A program made the translations under genes and the position numbers. A stretch of 64,000 nucleotides of DNA, from NCBI GenBank assembly GCA_913055845.1, contig CAJXKO010000007.1:1-64000 (forward strand), read 5' to 3'. Of this stretch, positions 3,126 through 23,261 are shown piece after piece. The notes below the pieces were generated by a model. It searched no databases and was not told where the DNA came from. It worked only from the letters and a program-made list of their open reading frames with translations. Position 1 is the first letter of the stretch. Every line of letters starts with the position of its first letter. This stretch comes from an uncultured Bacteroidota bacterium. Lineage in GTDB: Bacteria; Bacteroidota; Rhodothermia; Rhodothermales; Salinibacteraceae.

Positions 3126-5417
3126 ATGATCTCTCCGCAACGGATGTCTGTGCCCGACCGCTACGCTGCCTTTCTCCTCGTGGCGTTTGTTCTATTGGCC
3201 CCGCCGCTGCACGCCCAGGACACAACAGGGAGCACTACCCTCCAGGGCTTTGTGCGGGCCGCGGAGGATGGGCGTGCACTGCCCGGTGCCAACGTCGTCC
3301 TGCGCACCCGAGACGGGTCGATCCAGGCCGCCGCTGTGGCAAACGCGCAGGGCCTTTATCAGCTGTCAACCACACTCCGCCCCGATCGGTACCGCCTCCG
3401 GATCAGCTTCGTGGGATACGAGGCCTACCGGGATACCCTCCGCCTTTCGCCCGACGAGCAACGCGTCGTGTCGGTCGCCCTCACCGCCTCCCCCCAAGAA
3501 ATGGAAGGGGTCACCGTGGAGGGACGCCAGCCTGTCGCCGAGGCAGAGGCGGGCCTGCGAGAAATTCGTCCCGCCGACATTGAGGCGATCCCGACCCCTG
3601 GTCCCGGAAGTGACCTGGCGTCGTATCTGCGCAGCCTTCCGGGCGTGACCACGACCGGCGACCGGGGCGGACGTCTGTACGTCCGCGGTGGGACTCCCTC
3701 CCAAAATCTCGTGCTCGTCGACGGCATCCCAATCTACAAGCCGTTCCACATCCTCGGCTTCTTTTCGGCCTTCCCGGGCGACATGGTCTCGAACGCCGAC
3801 TTCTATGCGGGCGGATTCGGGGCCGAGTACATGGGCCGCATCTCCTCGGTGCTGGACGTAAACCTCCAAACCGGCAATACAGAAGAATTTGCGGGAAGCA
3901 TTGGCGGAGGCCCATTCCTGGCCTCCGTCCGCGCCGAGGGGCCGCTGCAGCGCGGATCGAGTTCGTTTCTCGTTCGCGCTCGTCACTCGCTCATCGAATA
4001 CACGAGCGGGTCGTTTCTGAGCAACGACACGCCGTTTAAATTCTACGATGTGACGGCCAAGGTGCATACCCAGTCTCGCTCGAACCAGTGCTCGTTCGTA
4101 GGGATGCGGACCTACGACCGGGGGCGTCTCGACCCCGACCGTGACGCCTCGTTCCGGTGGACCAACACAGCCGTGGGGGGCGAGTGCCTAATCTTCGGGG
4201 AACGTACGGCGCAGATTCTGGACGTGAGCTTCGGCACTACCCGCTTCAGCAACGCCGTGCTGTCCTCCGACGGCACCGAGCGCTCCGCCGGCACCTGGCG
4301 CCTCTTCTCAAACTTTGACCTCACGCAGCCTGGGCTCTGGGGAAACAAGATCCGGTGGACGGCCAAGGTGCGAGCCGACCAGTACAACTTTGATCTCGAC
4401 GAAATCGCTCTCGGCGTAACGGCGAACGACCAGTTTCTCATTACAACCAGTACCCATCTGGGAGCAGAGATTACATGGGGGGAGGCGCTCGCGATCAACC
4501 CGAGCATCGGGGCTCAATTTCCCATCTCCTACGCCCCTCCCTCCGTGGAGCCCCGCCTTCGACTCTCCTACCGCCCCGGCGGATCGGAGCGTACGTCGTT
4601 TACGGCCGCCGGGGGACTGTACCACCAATTCGTAGCCGGCCTCACCGACGAACGCGACGCGGGCTCCTCCTTCCAGATTTACGAGCCGACCCCGTTTGCC
4701 GATCGTCCTTCCCAGGCCCTCCACGCCGTGATGGGGTGGGATCAGCAACTGGGGCGGCCGTTTCGTCTGTCGGTGGAGGGGTGGTACAAGCAGCTTCGCG
4801 ATATTCCCGTGCCGCGGTGGACCCCCATCGTCCGCTTCAATACCAACCTAGCCCGCGCCGATGGGACGGCCTTTGGCGCCGACCTTTCCCTTCAGTACGA
4901 TCAAGGCCCTGTCGGCCTGAACGTCACCTACGGGTACGGGAAACTCACGTACCGGGCCGCCAAGGACCGTCTGGGGGCCTGGGGGGACAACGAACTCGTT
5001 GAATACTCGCCCCCGTACGACCTTCGCCACAAATTGGGCATCACTGCGTCCCTGGACGCCGACTGGGGAGCGGCCAGCGTTCGCTGGCAATACAGCTCCG
5101 GACTGCCGTTTACGAGCGTCTACGGCTTCGACACGTTCCTGGAGATCCGCGGCCGTCGCGATACCCCTCCTCGTAACATCGGGACCCCCCGGACCCTCTT
5201 CGACAAAGCATACGACTCCCGACTTCCCCCGTACCACCGTCTCGACGTGTCCCTCGAACGCGACATCACGCTCAGTCCCTCCGTGGACCTGCTGGTAGAG
5301 GCCGGAACCATCAATGCGTACGATCGAGCCAACATTTTTTACGTGGATATCTTCACGCTCGACCAGGTCGACCAACTGTCCCTGATTCCGTACCTCTCGT
5401 TCGAGGTCAGTTTCTGA
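3126..5417 (+). CDS. TonB-dependent receptor with CarboxypepD_reg-like N-domain
   Basis: The 763-residue outer-membrane receptor has a signal peptide ending LHAQ, then a carboxypeptidase-regulatory-like beta domain (residues about 38-120, with PGANVVL and ISFVGYEAY). A plug domain follows (LRSLPGVTTTGDRGGRLYVRGG, LVDGIPIYKP), then a beta-barrel ending in Phe (LSFEVSF), as expected for BAM-assembled proteins. At about 760 residues it is shorter than SusC proteins and belongs to the group often paired with a small lipoprotein, as here (next gene 52 bp downstream). An ATG seven codons inside (3144) is an alternative start. The substrate cannot be read from the sequence. Confidence 0.9.
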   Translation: MISPQRMSVPDRYAAFLLVAFVLLAPPLHAQDTTGSTTLQGFVRAAEDGRALPGANVVLRTRDGSIQAAAVANAQGLYQLSTTLRPDRYRLRISFVGYEAYRDTLRLSPDEQRVVSVALTASPQEMEGVTVEGRQPVAEAEAGLREIRPADIEAIPTPGPGSDLASYLRSLPGVTTTGDRGGRLYVRGGTPSQNLVLVDGIPIYKPFHILGFFSAFPGDMVSNADFYAGGFGAEYMGRISSVLDVNLQTGNTEEFAGSIGGGPFLASVRAEGPLQRGSSSFLVRARHSLIEYTSGSFLSNDTPFKFYDVTAKVHTQSRSNQCSFVGMRTYDRGRLDPDRDASFRWTNTAVGGECLIFGERTAQILDVSFGTTRFSNAVLSSDGTERSAGTWRLFSNFDLTQPGLWGNKIRWTAKVRADQYNFDLDEIALGVTANDQFLITTSTHLGAEITWGEALAINPSIGAQFPISYAPPSVEPRLRLSYRPGGSERTSFTAAGGLYHQFVAGLTDERDAGSSFQIYEPTPFADRPSQALHAVMGWDQQLGRPFRLSVEGWYKQLRDIPVPRWTPIVRFNTNLARADGTAFGADLSLQYDQGPVGLNVTYGYGKLTYRAAKDRLGAWGDNELVEYSPPYDLRHKLGITASLDADWGAASVRWQYSSGLPFTSVYGFDTFLEIRGRRDTPPRNIGTPRTLFDKAYDSRLPPYHRLDVSLERDITLSPSVDLLVEAGTINAYDRANIFYVDIFTLDQVDQLSLIPYLSFEVSF

Positions 5418-5469
5418 TCCCTCACTCTCCCAGCCAGCCCCACACAGCTTTTTGCCTGCCCCCGTTGCA

Positions 5470-6390
5470 ATGACTGCGTTTTCCGACTGCCAGCCGTTTG
5501 TGCGTTCCGTCTTCGCGGCGCTCGTCGTCGCGGCGGCGCTACTGATGCTGGGCTGTAAGGACCCGACCGTTGACGTTCTACAGCCCTCCGAGCAATTCCA
5601 GTTCTCCTTGTTTGGGGCCCTCGACGTGGCTGCCGACACGCAGGCCATCCGCGTGGAACCGCTCGGCGATTCGACCCAGATTGGGGCGCCGGAGGACCTG
5701 GGGGCAACCGTCTTTCTGGAAAACCTGAACACTGGCAAACAAATCCCCCTGCAGGACTCGCTCACAGATCTCGGCGTGCAGGTGCACAACCTGTGGACGA
5801 CCCAACCCATCCAACCTTCCACCTCCTACCGGGTTGTCGTTCAGGTCGAAGGAGAACCTGTCACGACCGCAACGACGAAAACCCCGGCCCGCCCTCCCAC
5901 TCTCACCCATACTGCGTTCCCGGACACCTCCCTCCGGCTGCCCTGCGTGTTTCCTGTGACCCCAAACAACCAGCGGCGGCCCGCGAATACGTTCACCGTT
6001 ACGGCCCGCAATGTGGACCGCATTGCGGCCGCAGAGGTCCACTATCCAATCGTGGGGGCTCCGCCGCGCGTGTTCAACCACTTCGAGGGGGTGGAGCGGG
6101 ACGAGGACCTGTTCATTATCTCTATCTTCTACCGGGAAAACCTAGTCACCGCCAATCCCAATCCGCCGCCCCCTCCCGCGCCGCCGGACTGTGCGAGCCG
6201 ATCCGACTTTGCGCATCCCTACGCAGAGGTAATCGTCGCGTCCGGTGGTCCCGACTGGCCCACGTGGCGGGGCCTCCCGCTGAACGAAATCGCGCGTCCA
6301 GATTCGTTCTCGAACGTGCAGGGTGGCAACGGATTCGTGGGGGGCGTCTACTCGGACACTGTCCGTGTGCCGGTCGCCGAGCGTCCTTAA
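5470..6390 (+). CDS. Lipoprotein partner of the TonB receptor (DUF4249-like)
   Basis: The 306-residue protein has a lipoprotein signal peptide (VAAALLMLGC). The mature part is rich in beta-type segments, with an Ig-like stretch STSYRVVVQVEG...VTTATTKTPARPPT that resembles DUF4249 lipoproteins encoded beside TonB receptors in Bacteroidota. The family assignment is by style only. It lies 52 bp after the receptor and is probably co-transcribed, so it likely acts as a surface-exposed accessory of that receptor. The ATG at 5470 is preferred to the TTG at 5452. A proline run (NPPPPPAPPD) occurs near residue 235. Confidence 0.6.
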   Translation: MTAFSDCQPFVRSVFAALVVAAALLMLGCKDPTVDVLQPSEQFQFSLFGALDVAADTQAIRVEPLGDSTQIGAPEDLGATVFLENLNTGKQIPLQDSLTDLGVQVHNLWTTQPIQPSTSYRVVVQVEGEPVTTATTKTPARPPTLTHTAFPDTSLRLPCVFPVTPNNQRRPANTFTVTARNVDRIAAAEVHYPIVGAPPRVFNHFEGVERDEDLFIISIFYRENLVTANPNPPPPPAPPDCASRSDFAHPYAEVIVASGGPDWPTWRGLPLNEIARPDSFSNVQGGNGFVGGVYSDTVRVPVAERP

Positions 6391-6485
6391 GGCTGCACCC
6401 CTGAGACGGGTCTTCTGCGATTGTCCCCCCAGATCTTCCCAGGCGGGATTCCCTTGCCTCTCTATCAAATGGGCGGACGGTTCCA

Positions 6486-6878
6486 CTACTCGCTGCTGCG
6501 GGTGCGGACGAGAATGGCCCCTGATCGGTGCCCAAGCCCAAACTTGAGCTGGGCCTCTCCCGCCCCGAAGTACTCAATCGTTGCTACGTCCATCCCGCCA
6601 ATGTTTTGGAGGACCTCAATGTCCCCGTACGGGGATCCAGTATTGTCAAGATAAACCTTGATGGGGGTCGGATTTTCGAAGGAGGCGCGGCCTCGCTTCC
6701 GAAGCCAGTTGGACTTGTGGCGGCGAACAATTTGGTACGCCGTAAACATCTCGGCCGGATACGACAGCTCGCGAACGTCAATCTGGTTCGAGGACACCCC
6801 ACTCGAAACCGCGTTTTCGGACGCTCCACAGGCCCCGAGAAGAAGACAGAGCGCAAGGAAAGAGGCAATTCGGGACAT
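6486..6878 (-). CDS. Small lipoprotein with a stand-alone TonB-plug-like domain
   Basis: The 130-residue protein has a short lipoprotein signal (CLLLGAC). Its C-terminal half reads VYLDN...IEVLQNIGGMDVATIEYFGAGEAQLKFGLGHRSGAILVRTR. This follows the order of the second half of TonB plug domains (DGVPI...I.SIEVLKGAAATAIYGSRGANGVILIETK), but no barrel follows. An upstream motif TAYQIVRRHKSNWLRKRG is seen in uncharacterised small proteins annotated as plug-containing. The start MSRIASFLALC at 6878 fits the signal peptide; the longer ORF adds an implausible leader. It is on the same strand as, and 85 bp downstream of, the two-Cys lipoprotein. Function unknown. Confidence 0.7.
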   Translation of the reverse strand: MSRIASFLALCLLLGACGASENAVSSGVSSNQIDVRELSYPAEMFTAYQIVRRHKSNWLRKRGRASFENPTPIKVYLDNTGSPYGDIEVLQNIGGMDVATIEYFGAGEAQLKFGLGHRSGAILVRTRSSE

Positions 6879-6963
6879 ATCAGAGTGTCCGTCTTGTTGC
6901 AAGAATGGCCCCACAAAATCGTCTGGCACACGACGGGTTTACAACGAGCACCAAAGCCGCCCC

Positions 6964-7536
6964 CTACGTTTCGCCGGAGGCATTGTCCGACGCCTCAGTG
7001 CCTCCCTGTTCCACGCGGGTCAAGAGAGAGCGGATGGGAGAGCGCGTCCGGTACGGAAGAGTAAAACGCTCCCCGCAGACCGTCCCTCGCATCGAACTCC
7101 CCCCGCCAATGGTGGACAACTGCTTACTCGATAGACTCACCTTCGCGAACACGCCACTCCTGATGGTGGCGGTCTGCCCGGCATCGCGTGTCTGCGCATC
7201 TTCCCACCGGAGCGTCTCGCTCCCAATCGTGAGGGTGACGTCTCGTCCCTCTACCGTGACCGCCTGTGGCCCTTCCTTGATGAAACGCATGGAGTACTGC
7301 GACGGCACACAGTCATCCCCCGTACATGTCCCCAAAATCTGCACGTAGAACCGGTTTCTCTGTTGCAGGCCACTCGTCATCTGAATGTCCTCTATCCGCA
7401 TTTCCCGAGTCTCATAGGTCGTCTGTCCGGAGGCACGGTCATAGGCCACCTCAACCGACTTGGAGGACCCAGCACAACCGACGAGGAGTAGACCGACGAG
7501 GAGGACGGTGCACCTTGCTCCCACTTCGCTCATCAT
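6964..7536 (-). CDS. Two-cysteine lipoprotein of unknown family (paralogue A)
   Basis: The 190-residue lipoprotein has lipobox LLLVGC. The mature part contains YDRASGQTTYETR, then a Cys pair GTCTGDDCVPS, a central beta-rich region ending ETLRWEDAQTRDAG, and a late SSMRGTVCG motif. It aligns end to end with the 190-residue lipoprotein at 22689, sharing the SG-TTY-TR, C-G-x2-C-x-PS and W-x2-...DA motifs. I do not recognise a named domain. The ATG at 7536 is used; the track start is a GTG two codons earlier. It may be co-transcribed with the plug-like lipoprotein downstream. Confidence 0.72.
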   Translation of the reverse strand: MMSEVGARCTVLLVGLLLVGCAGSSKSVEVAYDRASGQTTYETREMRIEDIQMTSGLQQRNRFYVQILGTCTGDDCVPSQYSMRFIKEGPQAVTVEGRDVTLTIGSETLRWEDAQTRDAGQTATIRSGVFAKVSLSSKQLSTIGGGSSMRGTVCGERFTLPYRTRSPIRSLLTRVEQGGTEASDNASGET

Positions 7537-8047
7537 GAGCACAGAGGGTTATTCACTTTTGCGGCGCGACGAGACCGACGGGCAAGTAAATCCGCACTTT
7601 TGGCCGTCGCCTTTCTTAACAGTCTCTTCGGACGCTAGTTCTGGAAATGAGAGATTTTCTCCGCTCAGAATGCCCCGCTCAGACCATTGTAGTCCACTGG
7701 AGACGATCAAGGCGTTCCCCCGGTGCAACCTTGTCCTCCCCCTGGCATCTTTCGGAGGCTGTAGGAGGCGAGAGGTAGCTGTGATCTTCTCCTCGACACG
7801 GTCCCCTCTCTTTCACAGGACTACTCGGAGAGACAGGGGGTCCATGAGGGGCACTCCTCGGAACAGACCCCGTAGAGTTGGTCACTTCAGAGTTGAAGCG
7901 GCGGTCTTTCGTCCCTGCTGGGGGTTCCCGAGCGGGGCCTCGTCTAGCGCAAAGAGAAGAGTGTTGGGAACGCAGTAGCTCGAGGCGGTAGCGGTGCAGC
8001 CAGAGCGGATGGACGAGAGCTGCCCCCTCCCAGCGCAATGAGTAGAG
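7537..8047. other. 511-bp region without a recognisable gene
   Basis: It lies between two minus-strand lipoprotein genes. The plus-strand ORF of 172 codons crossing it (7460-7978) is rich in Arg/Pro/Ser, has no domain character and overlaps the lipoprotein on the opposite strand. It is treated as a shadow. No terminator with a U-tract was found. It probably contains the promoter of the 6964 gene. Confidence 0.5.
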
Positions 8048-9187
8048 CTACTGGCTACTGCTCCACAACCGGGTATCGGGTTGGAAGTCAAACCAGGCCC
8101 GTCCATCGGCAATGAACGCGCGGCCAACGGGACGCAGTTGATCACCCACACGCGGACCTGAGAGGGCGCGTCCGGCCACCGACCAAACGCTCTGGGTCTG
8201 GTCGTCGACGATGTTTCCGTCCTGTACGGAGAACGACGCCGAGGTTTTATACGCCATGGCCGCCCGGGCGTCTGCACTCCAGAACACCACCATGTTTTCT
8301 CTGCTCACCGTTACCTCAACGACGCGGACCGGCGACGCACCGCCGAGGTCCTGAAACGCAAGCGCCAATCCCCCTGTCCCTCCACCCACGCGGGCCCGGT
8401 CCGGGATGCCGAGCACGCGTCCCAGGGGCACCTCATCGGTTGCGCGATCGGAGCGGGCCGTACGGACCGACGAATGCCGTGCCCCGCTGGCGGCCTCCAC
8501 GGTATCTTTGATGGCGACCCTCGTGTTTGGATACAACTCCTTCCAGCGTCCCCACTGCATTTCGACGGCGGGAAGCGTACGCAGACTAGTGCCCCGGTCC
8601 GGCCCACAGACGGCCCCAAGACTCATTTGCGGCCACAGCGACTCCCCACTTTCCGCATCCACCATCACCAGATTCCCCGGATGCTCTTCGTTTCCTTTGT
8701 TGAGCAGAAGCCCCGATATTTCGAACCGCGCCCCGTCAATGGCCTCGCGGTCGAAGACCAGGGTAGAAGAAGTGAGGGGACAGAACGTGATGGCGAGGGG
8801 CCGACGCGACCATTTGTCCAGGTTCATCACTTCACTATCGAAGAGAACGTCGAGTGGGATCGCCAGTGGGGTGCTGTTATACGCGCTGTGAAAGGATGGG
8901 GGAAGCCCAAGCACACGACTGGTGTTCGAAAAGGCCGACAGTTCCTCTTCGGCACGCGACGCGCGGACAAGCGAGGGATCGTTGATCGGCGTGATGGCCC
9001 CTCTGTTTGCCCCCTCGTTCAAAAACTCGACCGGAAAGGAGCATTCAAGCCCACCGTCATCCATGGAGGATCCTCCTTGCCCTCCAGAATCGCAGGCTGC
9101 AAAGAGGACGGCGAGTGCAAGAAGAACAACCGAGGCAAACCGGTGGGCCGTGCGCCTCCACTGGGGAGAAACCGAAAGCGTCGTCAT
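8048..9187 (-). CDS. DUF3179-domain lipoprotein
   Basis: The 379-residue protein has a lipoprotein signal (LAVLFAAC) followed by a Gly/Ser linker. The DUF3179 signature is clear: AIPLDVLFDSEVMNLD, ITFCPLTSSTLVFDR, ISGLLLNKGN, ESLWPQMSLGAVCG and a late WGRWKELYPNT. The role of DUF3179 is not established; the conserved FCPLTxS Cys and Asp residues suggest metal or redox chemistry outside the cytoplasm (inference). Transcribed on the minus strand, it precedes the 6964 gene by about 500 bp and follows the terminator at 9384. Confidence 0.85.
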   Translation of the reverse strand: MTTLSVSPQWRRTAHRFASVVLLALAVLFAACDSGGQGGSSMDDGGLECSFPVEFLNEGANRGAITPINDPSLVRASRAEEELSAFSNTSRVLGLPPSFHSAYNSTPLAIPLDVLFDSEVMNLDKWSRRPLAITFCPLTSSTLVFDREAIDGARFEISGLLLNKGNEEHPGNLVMVDAESGESLWPQMSLGAVCGPDRGTSLRTLPAVEMQWGRWKELYPNTRVAIKDTVEAASGARHSSVRTARSDRATDEVPLGRVLGIPDRARVGGGTGGLALAFQDLGGASPVRVVEVTVSRENMVVFWSADARAAMAYKTSASFSVQDGNIVDDQTQSVWSVAGRALSGPRVGDQLRPVGRAFIADGRAWFDFQPDTRLWSSSQ

Positions 9188-9507: not shown

Positions 9508-10758
9508 TCATTCGGAAACACGAATCACCCCGTAGTCGATCACCGGGTTGCCACTAAGTGTGTAGGGGCCATCCTCCGTTCCACCGGAGATCTCGAAGTC
9601 ATACGTCTCGTTTCCGTTCGTATCCTGGTGTGCCATCGCCGCGACAGCGGTTGTATCGGAGAGGGCCTCGTCGAGCCCCACCTTGATCTCGTTTTGGACT
9701 CCAGGATCCACGTACTCTGACTTTCCGATGATGCTTCCAATCACCTGCCCATTGGCGAGCGCCGTGCTGTCGTGAAAGACCACAAATCCGCCGCCATTGG
9801 GGCCCACATCCTCGGGGAAGAACGACCCATCGACGGTAATCGAGTCTCCAGCCGCTGTGTTCTCGGCGGTGCGATCGGTGAAGTCCAAGGAGGCCGTCGA
9901 AGGCGTTAGAAGGCCGTCGATGCCGTGCAGATTCTCGTCGTCGTTGGAGAGCGGGACATCCGGATACACAACCTGGGCGCCATCCACGCTCACTTCGCCC
10001 CCCGAGACACTGAAGGTAAGCGTCTGGTCGCCATAGAGCGTCTCTACCGTCTGCCCATCCGTGATATCCCCCGAGGCGACACTGGCCGGAATGGCGTGGT
10101 ACTTCAGAAGGTCTCCGAGTACGCTCGACGTGATGGGTTCATCGGCGTCTGTGGCCTGGGTAGGCACCGCGGGAAGGGTATTCAGGACGCGACTCTGCGG
10201 CCCAAGCACCGTGAGGGGCCCGCCCTGCGCCACGACCTGAGCAATCCCGGACGTAGCGGCCAGGCTATTGAGGGTCGAGAAGTCGGAAATACGCCCCAGC
10301 TGGGTCGCGACAGCCCCAGGAATCTCGGCCCGCACCTGAACAGTGTCGGGAAGAATATCATCCGGGGAGGCATCCACCGTCACCATGTGGGATGTGGTCT
10401 CCGAATCCGTGGTGGCGATGGGATCATCCGGGCTAAACACGACCGAAATGAACTCGCCCCCACGTCGCTGCCACTCGTATGTCTGATCGGCTCGGGTTTC
10501 GACCGGGAGCTCCGTGTCGTTCACCCTCCAGGAGTAGTCCTTGTCGATGGTGAACGCCTGAACGAAGTAGTCGACCGTATCGGGAACGACGACCGTGTCG
10601 GCGGCAGCTCCATAGTCCCCCCCGGTAGAATTCGAGAAGTTAATAATGTAGGAGTCCCCCGACGAGAAGTCGACGTTCTGAGAGCTTTGGTCACACCCAA
10701 CCAGGACGAGCGCACTGGCAAGGAGCAGCAGGGGAAGAGTACGGAAACGATGAATCAT
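9508..10758 (-). CDS. Lipoprotein with FAS1 (fasciclin) and DUF7282 domains
   Basis: The 416-residue protein starts MIHRFRTLPLLLLAS with lipobox LVLVGC. Residues about 30-140 are beta-rich. A FAS1 domain follows (FSTLNSLAATSGIAQVV, LTVLGPQ, LGDLLKYHAIP, VVYPDVPLSNDDENLHGIDGLLTP). The C-terminal part (about 300-410) reads VDGSFFPEDVGPNGGGFVVFHD...AMAHQDTNGNETYDF...DGPYTLSGNPVIDYG, which matches DUF7282, a domain typical of haloarchaeal secreted proteins. It probably acts as a surface adhesion or matrix lipoprotein. It lies 254 bp downstream of SusD1 on the same strand and is closed by the terminator at 9384. Confidence 0.85.
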   Translation of the reverse strand: MIHRFRTLPLLLLASALVLVGCDQSSQNVDFSSGDSYIINFSNSTGGDYGAAADTVVVPDTVDYFVQAFTIDKDYSWRVNDTELPVETRADQTYEWQRRGGEFISVVFSPDDPIATTDSETTSHMVTVDASPDDILPDTVQVRAEIPGAVATQLGRISDFSTLNSLAATSGIAQVVAQGGPLTVLGPQSRVLNTLPAVPTQATDADEPITSSVLGDLLKYHAIPASVASGDITDGQTVETLYGDQTLTFSVSGGEVSVDGAQVVYPDVPLSNDDENLHGIDGLLTPSTASLDFTDRTAENTAAGDSITVDGSFFPEDVGPNGGGFVVFHDSTALANGQVIGSIIGKSEYVDPGVQNEIKVGLDEALSDTTAVAAMAHQDTNGNETYDFEISGGTEDGPYTLSGNPVIDYGVIRVSE

Positions 10759-10895
10759 AGATACGAGCGGTTTGTCAGTGTGTGTTGCGGATGCGCACCC
10801 CAGGGGCACGAGGCACCGCTGAAGTGAGCCGAGGAAGGTTGCATAAACGTCAAGGTGAGTTCAGCCGAGGGCCGCTCCGTAACTTTCGACGTGCG

Positions 10896-11012: not shown

Positions 11013-12578
11013 CTATGGTCGGGCGTCCGCGGGCGGCTGTTCGGTGTCCCACCAGAGGCGGCTTCCATAATGGTCCGCCTCCACGCTCCCGAACTGCTGC
11101 TCCGCAGCGCTCTCAACATTTTCTTGGTTTACGCTGAACTCGCCGTCGGGGTAGTCGATGCGCATGGCCCAGGTGGTAAGCCCGCCTGCGTTCCCCTGCC
11201 AGCCCCCTTCCGGCTCGCGGATGTGTCCCTCAAAGTCGAGGCGGCGCCACTCGCTCCAGCCCTGAATGCCCTGGAAGTACAGCGCGATCCACTTCTGCTC
11301 TCCCAGTACCTGCTCAAACTCTTCGGCCGAGGAGGCACTGCTCACCTCGTCCATGACGGCGTCCACGTAGCCATCAACCTGGCTCTGCGAGGCGTCCGCA
11401 TTCCAGTTATTGATTGAGGCCCGAAGGGCTGCACGGAAGTGCTGATTGGCCGTCCCCGGAACGTTCCATCCCTTCCGGGCCGCCTCAGCCAGAATAAACC
11501 GCACCTCGTCGTACAGCATCATCGGGGCCGCCACGTCTGGCTCCAGGAAGTAGTCGCCCGGCTTCGAGAAGAAGTCATTCACGTTTTGGGCTTTCAGGCC
11601 CGCCGCGGCGGATGGAGAGAGGTGTGTGGGGAATCCATTGTAGGTCTTGTCCGGATTCGCCCGGGCCTCATCCACAAATGTCGGCGTGCGCGGATCGACG
11701 ACCGAGTAGTTCTCTGTCAGAATGTTCACGAACCGATCGGCCACATCAAAGTCGTTGCGGCCGTCGACGAACCGGTTCTCAAAGATCGTACTCCGGTGCG
11801 CGGAACTCGACGCGAACTCGAAGTAGGCGTTGTCTGCATTGCCTTCAAAGGCGTTTCCGGCCGCACTCTCCACGGCGCTCCGGGCCGCGCTCGTGTTGGC
11901 GTCGGACATTCGCATGCCGACACGCATCTTCAGCGCGTTGGCGAACTTCTGCCACTTGGCCATATCGCCGCCGTACACGAGGTCCCCAGTCGGTCCGGGC
12001 TGCCCAGATTGGATGAGACCGAGTGCCGTATCGAGCGAGTCAATAAGGGCCGGATAGACCTCCTGTTGTGGCGTGTATGCCGGGGAGGGATTGTTGGGTC
12101 CCTGAAGGGCTTCTTCCAGCGGAATCGACCCGTAGATATCGGTTACAACCTGGAGGGCCCAGACCTGGTGAATCATCGCCACGGCGACCGTATTCTGGGC
12201 GCGCGGAACCGCTTGGTCCCGACCCCGAATCAGGCTCTTCACCTGCTCTAGATCGTTAAGCGGGTTGTAGAAGTCGTCAAACTGACCCACTCGGGGCTCA
12301 GCAGCAAAGACGGAGTTTTCCGCGTACTGGTTCTGGGTCGTGTACTGCGCGAGCAGATTGGATCCTCGCATGGTGGGGTCGGCCCCAAACCAAGCGAAGG
12401 CAATGTCGCGCTGCCCATTTGCCAGAAGGGCGTTCACGTCCGGTTCGGTGGACGCGTTGGGGTTCTCGTTCAGGTCTGTGAGGCTGTCGTTCCCCAGGTT
12501 AAAGGTGTCACAGCCGGTTAGCCCCAGCGAGAGCGCCAAAATTCCTATGAGAAGGAGAGGAGTATTGCGTCGCATCAT
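11013..12578 (-). CDS. SusD/RagB-family outer-membrane lipoprotein (SusD-like_2 type), pair 1
   Basis: The 521-residue surface lipoprotein (lipobox LGLTGC, then DTFNLGND) belongs to the SusD group that captures nutrients for a SusC channel. The N-terminal LTDLNENPNAST and C-terminal MRIDYPDGEFSVNQENV are typical of the SusD-like_2 subgroup. Helical TPR-like segments fill the middle. The start at 12578 precedes the signal peptide; the longer ORF adds an unlikely leader. It lies 111 bp downstream of SusC1, and that gap contains a hairpin. Substrate unknown; the subgroup is not confined to glycans. Confidence 0.9.
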   Translation of the reverse strand: MMRRNTPLLLIGILALSLGLTGCDTFNLGNDSLTDLNENPNASTEPDVNALLANGQRDIAFAWFGADPTMRGSNLLAQYTTQNQYAENSVFAAEPRVGQFDDFYNPLNDLEQVKSLIRGRDQAVPRAQNTVAVAMIHQVWALQVVTDIYGSIPLEEALQGPNNPSPAYTPQQEVYPALIDSLDTALGLIQSGQPGPTGDLVYGGDMAKWQKFANALKMRVGMRMSDANTSAARSAVESAAGNAFEGNADNAYFEFASSSAHRSTIFENRFVDGRNDFDVADRFVNILTENYSVVDPRTPTFVDEARANPDKTYNGFPTHLSPSAAAGLKAQNVNDFFSKPGDYFLEPDVAAPMMLYDEVRFILAEAARKGWNVPGTANQHFRAALRASINNWNADASQSQVDGYVDAVMDEVSSASSAEEFEQVLGEQKWIALYFQGIQGWSEWRRLDFEGHIREPEGGWQGNAGGLTTWAMRIDYPDGEFSVNQENVESAAEQQFGSVEADHYGSRLWWDTEQPPADARP

Positions 12579-12632
12579 AGCAGGAACGTCGGGAAAGTAC
12601 AAAAGGGGTGAGCAAGGAGCACACATCCTCAG

Positions 12633-12689: not shown

Positions 12690-15600
12690 CTAGAACTGCA
12701 GGTTGACCTTGAAGCCGTAGGTGCGGCGCGGCGGAATCTGGCCCGCTTCAATCCCCTGCACGTTCCCGGCCGAGAGCGTCACGGACGGGTCGATGTTTGG
12801 GGCCTCTTTGTAGAGAGTCGCCAGGTTCCGTCCCGTAACTGAGACTGTCGCTCCTTGAAGGGGGAGGTCCGAAAGCCACCGCTGGGGGAGCCGATACGTG
12901 AGGGCAATCTCCCGCAGCTTCATGTGGGTCGCGTCGAACAAGAAGGTCTCGCCAGCCGCTGAGAACATTCCCTTCCAGTACGCCGAGGCGCTAATCGGCG
13001 TCCCCACGAAGTCCGCGTACGTGCCGCCCGTCACGTCGGGATCCTCAGCGTCAACTGTCGAGACATCTCCCGCCCCCGTTTCTGGAAGTACAACACCCTC
13101 AGGTACAAGACCCGTCTCTCGGACAGTGCCCGCAGTCGTCGCATCGATAAGTCCGCTGAACGTCCCAAAGGTATTCGACAGCGACCAGATCTGTCCGCCC
13201 ATCTGTCCGTCAACGAGCGCACTCACCGTGAAGCCTTTGTAGGAGAGAGTCGTGGAGACCCCCCCGGTCCAGTCTGCCTGGAAGCTCCCTAGCGTCTGTG
13301 GCGTCCCGACAGTGCGTGGGTTGCCGTTCTCACGGTACACAATGTCTCCGCTCCGATCTCGAAGAAGCTCTGTTCCAAGAAACTGACCGTAGGGCTCCCC
13401 TTCTCGGGCCACAATGTCGGGCCCAAAGGGCGCCGACCCGAGGACGAAGGTGTCGATGCCTTCGGCAAGCTCCACGACCTCGTTCTCGTTCGTGGACCAG
13501 TTCACCGTAATGTCCCACTGAAGCTCTTCCGTCAGGACCGGCGTTCCGGTGACCGACGCCTCCACGCCGGTATTCGAAATTTCCCCCGCGTTGATGGCCG
13601 CCGCGTTGAACCCGGACGTCGGCGAGATGTCCGACTGGAGGATCTGGTCCTCCGTCGACTCGTCGTAGAAGGTCGCGCTGAGATTCAAGCGCTCCTGGAA
13701 GAACCGGAGATCCACGCCAACTTCGTAGCCGGTTGTGATCTCACGGGTGAGGTTCGGATTCGGGGCCGCCCGTTCAACCTGCTGGAGCGGCTGGCCTTCA
13801 AACGGTGTGTTGACCGGGAAGACCGGGCTCAGCTGAAAGGGATCGGCGCTGTTCCCCACCTTGGCCCAACTGGCTCGCACCTTTCCGTACGTCAGGATGT
13901 CCTGCTCCTGAAAGGGTCCGAGATCCGTGAAGATGAAGCTTCCCTGGACCGAGGGATAGAGGAAGGAATTATCGTCGGACGGCAGCGTCGAGGCCCAGTC
14001 GTTGCGGAGCGTTCCGGTGAGGTAAACAAAGTCGTTATACCCCAGCGTCACGTCCCCGTACAGACTGTTGACCTGCTTCTGCCGGAAGTTCTGTGTGAGG
14101 TTGGGACGGCCAACGGAGTTTTCGATGTTGAACAGTCCCGGAGCCGCCAGGCCCTGCGTGGTCTCCCGCTGTTCGAACTGGAAGGTTTCCCACCGAATCC
14201 GGCCGGCAACGAAGGACTCCAGACTGACCTCTTCCGAAAGCTGCCGGTCGTAGTCAACCTTCAATTCCGTATTGATTTCCTGTGCCTCAATGGTACCTCT
14301 CCGGAACCGGTCCTGTGGCTGAGAGAGCTTAGGCACCCGGAAGTCGCGCTGTTCGGTCCGGTAATCGTTTGTGACCTTCCACGTCGCGTCGAAGTTGGGA
14401 AGGAAGTCGTACGAGACCTGCGCCTTCCCGTAAATGCGCTGCTGATCGTCGTTATTGACGTTTGCGAAGCGGTGCAGGTAGGGATTGTCGGTGAAGTTGT
14501 ACACCGGCGGATCCTGCCGCGCGCCCTGAACGCCCAGGTAGTTCCACCCCCGCGAACTTCCGCTTGGGCGCTGGAAGTCACGCATGAAACTATCGGGCCC
14601 GAGATCCCACTGCCGCTGGCCGAACGTATTGAACTGAGCGAACGGGTTGGTCCCCGGCGCGCACGTCGCGTTCTGGCAGAAGTAGCCCGTACTCACGCGC
14701 CCCTTTGTATCGATGAAGTTGTAGGTGGCCGTTGCGCTCGCTGTGATGTTCTCCCCAAGATCTGTCGACCCGTTAAACTGGAAACGGTAGTTGTCGCGGG
14801 AACTGTTGGGAAATACGCTCTCCCGGTTCTTCCAGTTGAGGGCGAGCCGGTAGCTGTACGTCGACGCTCCCTGCGACAGCGCGATGCTGTTGCTGAACTC
14901 CGTTCCGTCGCCGCTCAAGTAGTCTTCGATGTTGCCGGAGTGGGCCTGCCAGGGCGTCGCCTGTCCCAGAAGCCCATTCACGTCGTCGAAGCTGTACCAC
15001 TGCCGAACCTGACGGCCATCCAGCGGAGGTCCCCAAGATTCATCCGTCGCCATATCCGCGACGAGCTGGTCGCTTCCGCTATCAAGCCGAAAGGTATTAC
15101 CCTGCACGGTGGTAAACGGATTTGCCTCCGCACCGCCCCCGTACTCGTTCTGGTAGTCCATGAGTTCGTACGGCTGCGAAACGCGGACGCTCGAGGTGTA
15201 CGAGACGCCAAGGCCCTCCTCCCCCGATCCGTCTTTGGTAGTAATCTGAATCACCCCGTTCGCACCGCGCGACCCATACAATGCGGCGGCCGAGGGCCCC
15301 TTCAGTACCGACACAGACTGAATGTTCTCCGGGTTGATGTTTCGGGCGGCGTTACCGAAGTCGAATCCGCCGGAGCCCTCGTTCTGAAACTGAGACGCCT
15401 GGTTCGTGGAGTTATCGATCGGAATCCCGTCGATCACGATGAGGGGCTGGTTGCTTCCCGTTAGGGACGAGATCCCTCGGATCTTGATGTCGCTCGATCC
15501 GCCCATCGTACTAGACGTGCGAATGTCGACGCCGGAGACACGGCCTTCCAGCGAGCTGATGAAGTTGCCCTCATCCACTTCTGCAAGGTCCCCGCCGTCC

Positions 15601-16001
15601 ACCTGCTGGACGGATGTCGAAACCGATCGCTGGGTTCGCTCTTCGCCCAGCGCCGTCACGACTACGTCCTCCAGACCCACGGCCTGCGGCGCCAGCCGAA
15701 TATTGACGTTAATGGTTCCACCGGCTTGCACCGTGACCGGAATCGACTTCGTGGCGTACCCGACAAACGAGGCCTGGAGCGTTTGCTCCCCAGCCGGCAC
15801 GTCGGAAATCCGGAACTTCCCGTTGGGTCCTGTTGCGGCCCCAATATTTTGTCCCTGAACCGCCACGTTCACCCCGGGCAGGGTTTCAGAGGTCGTACTG
15901 TCCACAACAGTACCGGCAATAGTGCCGGTATCTTGCGCCAACACGGTGGCCGGCACCGCCAGTAATACACCTATTAGGGCAGCTAGTACCTTTCGAAACA
16001 T
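12690..16001 (-). CDS. SusC/RagA-family TonB-linked outer-membrane protein, pair 1
   Basis: The 1103-residue protein has a signal peptide ending VLAQ and a CarboxypepD_reg-like domain (residues 23-110, with GTIAGTVVDSTTSETLPGVNV). A TonB plug follows (DVVVTALGEERTQRS, IKIRGISSLTGSNQPLIVIDGIPI, VSVLKGPSAAALYGSRGANGVIQITT), then a long barrel ending NLQF. It forms the channel of a SusCD complex with the downstream SusD1. The ATG at 16001 starts directly at the signal peptide. The 581-bp upstream region carries candidate operator repeats. Confidence 0.95.
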   Translation of the reverse strand: MFRKVLAALIGVLLAVPATVLAQDTGTIAGTVVDSTTSETLPGVNVAVQGQNIGAATGPNGKFRISDVPAGEQTLQASFVGYATKSIPVTVQAGGTINVNIRLAPQAVGLEDVVVTALGEERTQRSVSTSVQQVDGGDLAEVDEGNFISSLEGRVSGVDIRTSSTMGGSSDIKIRGISSLTGSNQPLIVIDGIPIDNSTNQASQFQNEGSGGFDFGNAARNINPENIQSVSVLKGPSAAALYGSRGANGVIQITTKDGSGEEGLGVSYTSSVRVSQPYELMDYQNEYGGGAEANPFTTVQGNTFRLDSGSDQLVADMATDESWGPPLDGRQVRQWYSFDDVNGLLGQATPWQAHSGNIEDYLSGDGTEFSNSIALSQGASTYSYRLALNWKNRESVFPNSSRDNYRFQFNGSTDLGENITASATATYNFIDTKGRVSTGYFCQNATCAPGTNPFAQFNTFGQRQWDLGPDSFMRDFQRPSGSSRGWNYLGVQGARQDPPVYNFTDNPYLHRFANVNNDDQQRIYGKAQVSYDFLPNFDATWKVTNDYRTEQRDFRVPKLSQPQDRFRRGTIEAQEINTELKVDYDRQLSEEVSLESFVAGRIRWETFQFEQRETTQGLAAPGLFNIENSVGRPNLTQNFRQKQVNSLYGDVTLGYNDFVYLTGTLRNDWASTLPSDDNSFLYPSVQGSFIFTDLGPFQEQDILTYGKVRASWAKVGNSADPFQLSPVFPVNTPFEGQPLQQVERAAPNPNLTREITTGYEVGVDLRFFQERLNLSATFYDESTEDQILQSDISPTSGFNAAAINAGEISNTGVEASVTGTPVLTEELQWDITVNWSTNENEVVELAEGIDTFVLGSAPFGPDIVAREGEPYGQFLGTELLRDRSGDIVYRENGNPRTVGTPQTLGSFQADWTGGVSTTLSYKGFTVSALVDGQMGGQIWSLSNTFGTFSGLIDATTAGTVRETGLVPEGVVLPETGAGDVSTVDAEDPDVTGGTYADFVGTPISASAYWKGMFSAAGETFLFDATHMKLREIALTYRLPQRWLSDLPLQGATVSVTGRNLATLYKEAPNIDPSVTLSAGNVQGIEAGQIPPRRTYGFKVNLQF

Positions 16002-22532: not shown

Positions 22533-22688
22533 GACCGATCCATCGGTATGTGCTCTAGACCAGATATTCCTCGTTCTCTCAACCTTCTACCCTTTGCATC
22601 CCGTGGGGGCAGGAACCCGCCAAAACCGTGCTCATTCGCCCTTTCCCCTCATCTTCACGTGTACCTCAACTCCCAAATTCTCCTGGAT

Positions 22689-23261
22689 ATGGATCTCTCA
22701 CAACTCCGCGTGCTGCCACTTTTCGTTGCGCTGCTCGTTGCCGGGTGTAGTGGAGGGCAGACAGCCTATCAGTCGTACGATTCAGAGTCGGGAGAAACCA
22801 CCTACCGAACACGATCCTACACCGTTTCGACCTTGTCGGGGTCAAACATCGGCAGCTCGAAATCGATCAGCATGCGGGCCGTCAGCCAATGCGTCGGCCA
22901 GGCCTGCACCCCCAGTACGGTGCAACTTGTCTTCTCGGCCAGTGGGAACCAACAGCTCCAGCTTTCCGGACTTGACGGTGAGATCGTAGCCGATGAGACC
23001 CGCATCAACTGGAGCAGCCGCGATGCCGCTCAGGGGTACGCAAATACCTCGGACGACCAGGTGATCAACGTAGTCGGCAAGTTTGCGGCCATCGATCTGT
23101 CCGTCAGCGACGTGAATCAGATCGTAAACGCCTCGTCTGTGCGCGGTCGCATCGGCGGACGTCCCCTCAACCTCGGGTCGGGGGTGAAGGTGGGCCTCGA
23201 AAGCCTGGTGCAGAAGATGCAGGGAACCTCGACCGGGTCGGAAAGCGCGGAGGGCCAGTAG
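22689..23261 (+). CDS. Two-cysteine lipoprotein of unknown family (paralogue B)
   Basis: The 190-residue lipoprotein starts MDLSQLRVLPLF with lipobox LLVAGC; the longer ORF upstream is rejected because the signal peptide would be internal. It has YDSESGETTYRTR, then SQCVGQACTPS, then ETRINWSSRDAAQG, GKFAAIDLS and SSVRGRIGG. These match the 6964 gene in the same order and at the same total length. No known domain is recognised. It is the only plus-strand gene inside the SusC/SusD array. Confidence 0.72.
   Translation: MDLSQLRVLPLFVALLVAGCSGGQTAYQSYDSESGETTYRTRSYTVSTLSGSNIGSSKSISMRAVSQCVGQACTPSTVQLVFSASGNQQLQLSGLDGEIVADETRINWSSRDAAQGYANTSDDQVINVVGKFAAIDLSVSDVNQIVNASSVRGRIGGRPLNLGSGVKVGLESLVQKMQGTSTGSESAEGQ

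Follow-up and report, generated by a model that had tools for sequence, protein, structure and literature searches.

Putative lipid-anchored plug domains lacking a barrel are repeatedly encoded in or beside susC-susD operons of Rhodothermales

TonB pulls on the TonB box of a receptor, not on the plug core. In SusCD importers, lid closure can be accompanied by expulsion of the entire plug from the barrel, and how the channel is reset has been described as unclear (PMC7782687). Acidic residues located after the lipoprotein cysteine drive surface export in Bacteroidetes (PMC5080379). A barrel-less signalling protein derived from a TonB receptor, VreA of Pseudomonas, is known (PMC2729926). VreA was the only protein found when the open-access literature was searched for stand-alone plug proteins, and it is itself without a plug; a published description may have been missed. 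The present locus encodes a 130-residue lipoprotein (P0001) that had been proposed to be a barrel-less, lipid-anchored plug domain, a proposal that is supported by sequence profiles and a predicted fold.

P0001 is encoded on the minus strand at positions 6486-6878 of the window (the whole 64,000-nucleotide stretch of DNA that was analysed), with an ATG start codon at 6878, and the plus strand over the same interval is interrupted by a stop. The reading frame, the residues quoted in the original prediction and the lipobox cysteine (Cys17) were all confirmed. The signal peptide and lipobox (6828-6878, minus strand) end in LLGAC, which reads as a lipobox, and the cysteine was invariant in 23/23 aligned relatives. 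The Ser/Gly-rich linker that follows (residues 18-30; 6789-6827, minus strand) contained neither a TonB box nor an acidic export motif, and the AF2 pLDDT was below 50 for residues 1-27. The same genome harbored a paralogue with 49% identity (contig C28), whose neighbours we take, from reading their sequences, to be an M24-type peptidase and an alpha-amylase-like gene. In close pairs of the family, dN/dS was ~0.06-0.2 and substitutions were strongly biased to silent sites, thus indicating that these genes are maintained. The ORF is a real gene and not a chance one, because it has a paralogue, relatives in ~19 genomes of the order and a silent-site bias. The match of P0001 to part of a SusC plug could also be read as a decaying fragment of a SusC gene. 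This reading was refuted by dN/dS and lipobox conservation, and it has practically no chance of being correct for an old, divergent family in which 23/23 members carry their own signal peptide and lipobox. A promoter and terminator scan of positions 6300-8100 was uninformative.

A search of the genome contigs with P0001 as the first query found nothing; a profile of three sequences then recovered relatives throughout the order of the window and was followed by a 23-sequence profile. The latter detected 25 copies among 245 genomes of the class, all of which were within the order, including members in two Salinivenus genomes, whose genus label the assembly of the window shares. The weakest member scored 113 bits, and the next match, a SusC-sized receptor, scored 40 bits. 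The family was unnamed in the sequence libraries used here. Small lipoproteins of ~140-200 aa with a full plug and no barrel surfaced in the same searches, and among these L004/L118 and L007/L119 passed the Pfam PF07715 cut-off. One locus (L116) contained three stand-alone full-plug lipoproteins in tandem (4663-5079, 5440-5850 and 5905-6318).

Searched alone, P0001 had no Pfam match at E<=1 and did not reach the PF07715 gathering score, and single-sequence searches of NCBIfam and the PDB returned nothing useful; an NCBIfam match to a toxin subunit (E 0.012, 14.9 bits vs. a cut-off of 125) was rejected as noise. PF07715 matched 4/23 relatives at E<=1 (best 1.8e-4), and the profile of the 23 relatives placed SusC/RagA plugs at the top of 177,635 distinct PDB sequences (best E 0.0015). 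In the genome searches with the small lipoproteins, the next matches after the family were the plugs of 1000-aa TonB receptors, and those to SusC plugs covered profile positions ~61-131. The hhalign comparison of the mature domain of the family with 28 SusC plugs gave a probability of 98.6, an E-value of 8.5e-16 and a score of 90.2 over 69 columns. Because none of 40 column-shuffled controls scored above 14.4 and the reversed alignment scored only 10.8, the resemblance of these sequences to plugs is judged to be real and beyond chance. The family was also aligned with the full-plug lipoproteins at a probability of 98.7, in an alignment that includes the signal peptides. The C-terminal half of P0001 (residues 73-127; 6498-6662, minus strand) matched SusC plugs most strongly in both profile searches and hhalign. 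The match to the second half of plug domains that had been read from the single sequence was therefore borne out, but it was not confined to that half, as the β1-α1 start and the RG motif also align.

The AF2 model of P0001, for which the input alignment was thin (six sequences only), had a pTM of 0.66 and a mature-domain pLDDT of 66-89 per ten-residue block, and its strands and helices followed the plug order. The first 35 Foldseek matches in the PDB were all TonB-dependent receptors; support for the plug fold rests on this unanimity, since each individual E-value was weak (>=0.075). Approximately 55-64 residues were superposed at 2.0-2.8 Å on many SusC/RagA chains, and a plug fold is predicted on these grounds. 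The profiles show, and the predicted fold supports, that the mature part of P0001 can be described as a shortened TonB-receptor plug.

The predicted domain (residues 31-127; 6498-6788, minus strand) runs β1, α1, β, α2, β, α3, β and was delimited by the AF2 model, Foldseek and hhalign. It retained β1-α1 and both the RG and the VYLD motif, and its C-terminal half was complete, with A109, G120 and the final strand all present. Arg62-Gly63 (6690-6695, minus strand) aligned with the RG of the plug IRG motif (R62 in 23/23 relatives and G63 in 20/23), and VYLD (residues 75-78; 6645-6656, minus strand) aligned with the plug LIDG motif (V75 in 21/23, Y76 in 23/23 and D78 in 15/23). The region between helix 1 and RG was shortened compared with full plugs, with the vPGVxV strand and the PGV hairpin deleted, and the motif LRPxWLxxRG was peculiar to the family, its N-terminal LRPxWL part being family-specific. 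There is no 22-strand barrel, as the whole protein comprises 130 aa. P0001 is thus a minimal plug.

A TonB box was sought in P0001 by spacing and alignment and was not found. This result bears on the earlier proposal that the lipoprotein might act as a decoy or regulate TonB traffic, i.e., that it binds TonB and competes with transporters. P0001 is plug-derived and probably faces the periplasm, and the first strand in its subclade (IDVREL, IVVEAL) slightly resembles the SusC TonB box VVVTAL. However, IDVREL lies ~10 residues before helix 1, the place of plug β1, whereas the TonB boxes of the SusC proteins in the window lie ~30 residues before helix 1. The other 18 members have an ITxEEI-type sequence at this strand, and the plug core is not the part of a receptor that TonB grips. 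The decoy proposal was therefore left unsupported, and we consider it quite improbable.

Among the 25 family copies, 14 were located within 6 kb of a susC gene, compared with 1.5 expected from where susC genes lie in those 19 genomes, and 12 of these 14 shared the strand of susC. Counted once per distinct context, 8/14 were near susC, compared with 0.9 expected. The corresponding tail values (9e-12 and 4e-7) serve as description only, given that the 6-kb limit was set after the neighbourhoods had been seen and the contexts were grouped by eye. The family gene occupied the fourth place in a SusC-SusD-FAS1 operon in three loci (L096, L097 and L103), directly preceded SusC in five (L105, L107, L108, L110 and L120) and followed SusD in one with two copies (L109). 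Furthermore, the full-plug lipoproteins of L111-L114 directly adjoined susC or susD. Genes of the barrel-less plug lipoprotein family thus recur within susC-susD operons or alongside them, a recurrence that is beyond what the reading of a single sequence could show and that suggests an unrecognised accessory part of the SusC/SusD importer.

The linkage is not obligatory, because 11/25 copies had no susC inside 6 kb. Six of these formed one clade, and five of the six were in a context of genes that we take, from reading their sequences, to be aroF and prfA. In a single family of the order (L099, L101, L102 and L003), the plug lipoprotein occupied a conserved position by prfA, and also by aroF where the contig extends, in a setting without Sus genes.

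In the window, the genes from SusC to P0001 were all on the minus strand, beginning with SusC (12690-16001; family searches), a SusD-like lipoprotein (11013-12626; domain search) and a fasciclin plus DUF7282 lipoprotein (9508-10809; domain search). These were followed by a DUF3179 lipoprotein (8048-9187; domain search), a two-Cys lipoprotein (6964-7542; C73 and C78) and P0001 (6486-6878). The two-Cys lipoprotein mentioned in the original prediction is therefore real, and the island content given there was confirmed within the window, which has three SusC proteins and a single TonB receptor (3126-5417). The TonB-dependent receptor, on the plus strand, is paired with a DUF4249-like lipoprotein on the same strand (5452-6390, below the Pfam cut-off). 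Six relatives carried the order SusC-SusD-FAS1-twoCys-TonB receptor-DUF4249-PgsA-FtsY with all genes on one strand and a plug lipoprotein nowhere inside, although the flanks were incomplete in some of these loci. Compared with these relatives, the receptor/DUF4249 pair (3126-6390) was inverted in the window, and P0001 was located at the junction. The six relatives also lacked the DUF3179 gene, which in the window separates the FAS1 gene from the two-Cys gene. The P0001 gene would have joined the SusC-SusD-FAS1-two-Cys cluster at its end, where one edge of a small inversion lies; the difference between the loci is observed, and this order of events is the one that we infer. Its absence at the locus in the six relatives makes P0001 a variable cargo of the SusC-SusD-FAS1-two-Cys locus and indicates that the SusCD pair in the window does not need it.

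The suggestion that the two neighbouring lipoproteins form a conserved pair was checked across relatives and rejected, since the two-Cys gene occurred at the locus without a plug lipoprotein in six relatives, and plug lipoproteins elsewhere had no two-Cys neighbour. The two-Cys protein was beta-rich with no confident fold; its predicted structure was of low confidence, and the structure search gave no credible match. A second two-Cys lipoprotein (22584-23261, plus strand), ~30% identical to that at 6964-7542, was present within the same SusCD island. The two-Cys family was common in Salinivenus-type genomes, and no Pfam model matched it.

The variable occurrence of P0001 bears on a serious rival explanation, in which the plug was exapted as a small module with a binding or structural task in the periplasm and without a role for TonB or SusC, and the gene lies near susCD because it was born from Sus loci or exchanged with them. 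The absence of P0001 from orthologous Sus loci, the clade of six without a nearby susC (five of which share the conserved aroF-prfA context), the loss of the PGV hairpin and TonB box, and the family-specific LRPxWL motif would all be expected of such a module. However, the susCD linkage recurred in at least eight distinct contexts, mostly on the same strand and often adjacent, the separate full-plug lipoproteins were also linked to susCD, and the RG and VYLD motifs were retained. On balance, exaptation appears possible but is the answer in a minority of the outcomes that we envisage.

The start of the mature protein provides a clue to its facing. None of the 23 family members had an acidic residue directly after the cysteine (a mean of 0.35 acidic residues in five positions), whereas 12/14 neighbouring SusD, FAS1 and other lipoproteins began with CD. 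P0001 probably faces the periplasm, because no member has an acidic residue after the cysteine, unlike the SusD neighbours that begin with CD; the export signal used for this reading is borrowed from other Bacteroidota and may not hold in the phylum of the host.

We regard it as an even proposition that P0001 assists SusCD importers as a plug-derived accessory that is anchored by its lipid and faces the periplasm. In such an accessory, the lipid would tether P0001 under the outer membrane at the periplasmic face of SusCD, and the plug-like domain would touch either the mouth of the SusC barrel or its released plug. This contact would stabilise, seal or reset the SusC channel. The periplasmic side is where the SusC plug and TonB meet, and a lipid-anchored, plug-like helper would fit both the place and the fold. 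A more specific and rather speculative version, which we consider unlikely, is that P0001 serves as a third SusCD component, a lipid-anchored spare or helper plug under the barrel that would seal the channel or re-seat the native plug once the lid has closed and the plug has been expelled. Lipid-anchored plug proteins beside susCD are concrete candidates for explaining how SusC stays sealed and how its plug returns.

Several lineages have plug domains in the form of free-standing lipoproteins. A Gemmatimonadetes relative (L128), 2 kb from a SusC, belonged to this group. A gene adjoining its plug lipoprotein (6386-7942, minus strand) encoded carboxypeptidase-regulatory repeats and a plug, also without a barrel. 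The full-plug group and the Gemmatimonadetes relative together indicate that barrel-less plug lipoproteins are a broader kind, of which P0001 is a shortened variant.

Compared with PF07715 plugs, particularly those of SusC/RagA, P0001 has the same strand-helix order, the RG of IRG, a LIDG-like VYLD and the α2-β-α3-β C-terminal half, but it lacks the PGV hairpin, TonB box, CPD domain and barrel and falls under every Pfam threshold. The full-plug lipoproteins (L004/L118, L007/L119 and L111-L117), which pass or resemble PF07715, likewise have a lipobox, a plug and no barrel and are often beside susCD; they differ in retaining the entire plug, whereas the P0001 family is shortened in the first half and is marked by an LRPxWL..RG motif of its own. 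VreA (PA0674) is similarly receptor-derived, barrel-less and periplasmic (PMC2729926), and it provides a precedent for the signalling role that had been envisaged for P0001. However, VreA keeps an N-terminal signalling domain and a TonB/TolA-like domain and no plug, whereas P0001 has no such signalling domain, and neither a sigma factor nor an anti-sigma gene was recognised beside it. A signalling module is thus very improbable. The accessory lipoproteins of SusCD utilisomes resemble P0001 in that they are also encoded by lipoprotein genes in the susCD operon; the known ones are surface-exposed binders or enzymes (PMC7618045), whereas P0001 is plug-derived and has no acidic start.
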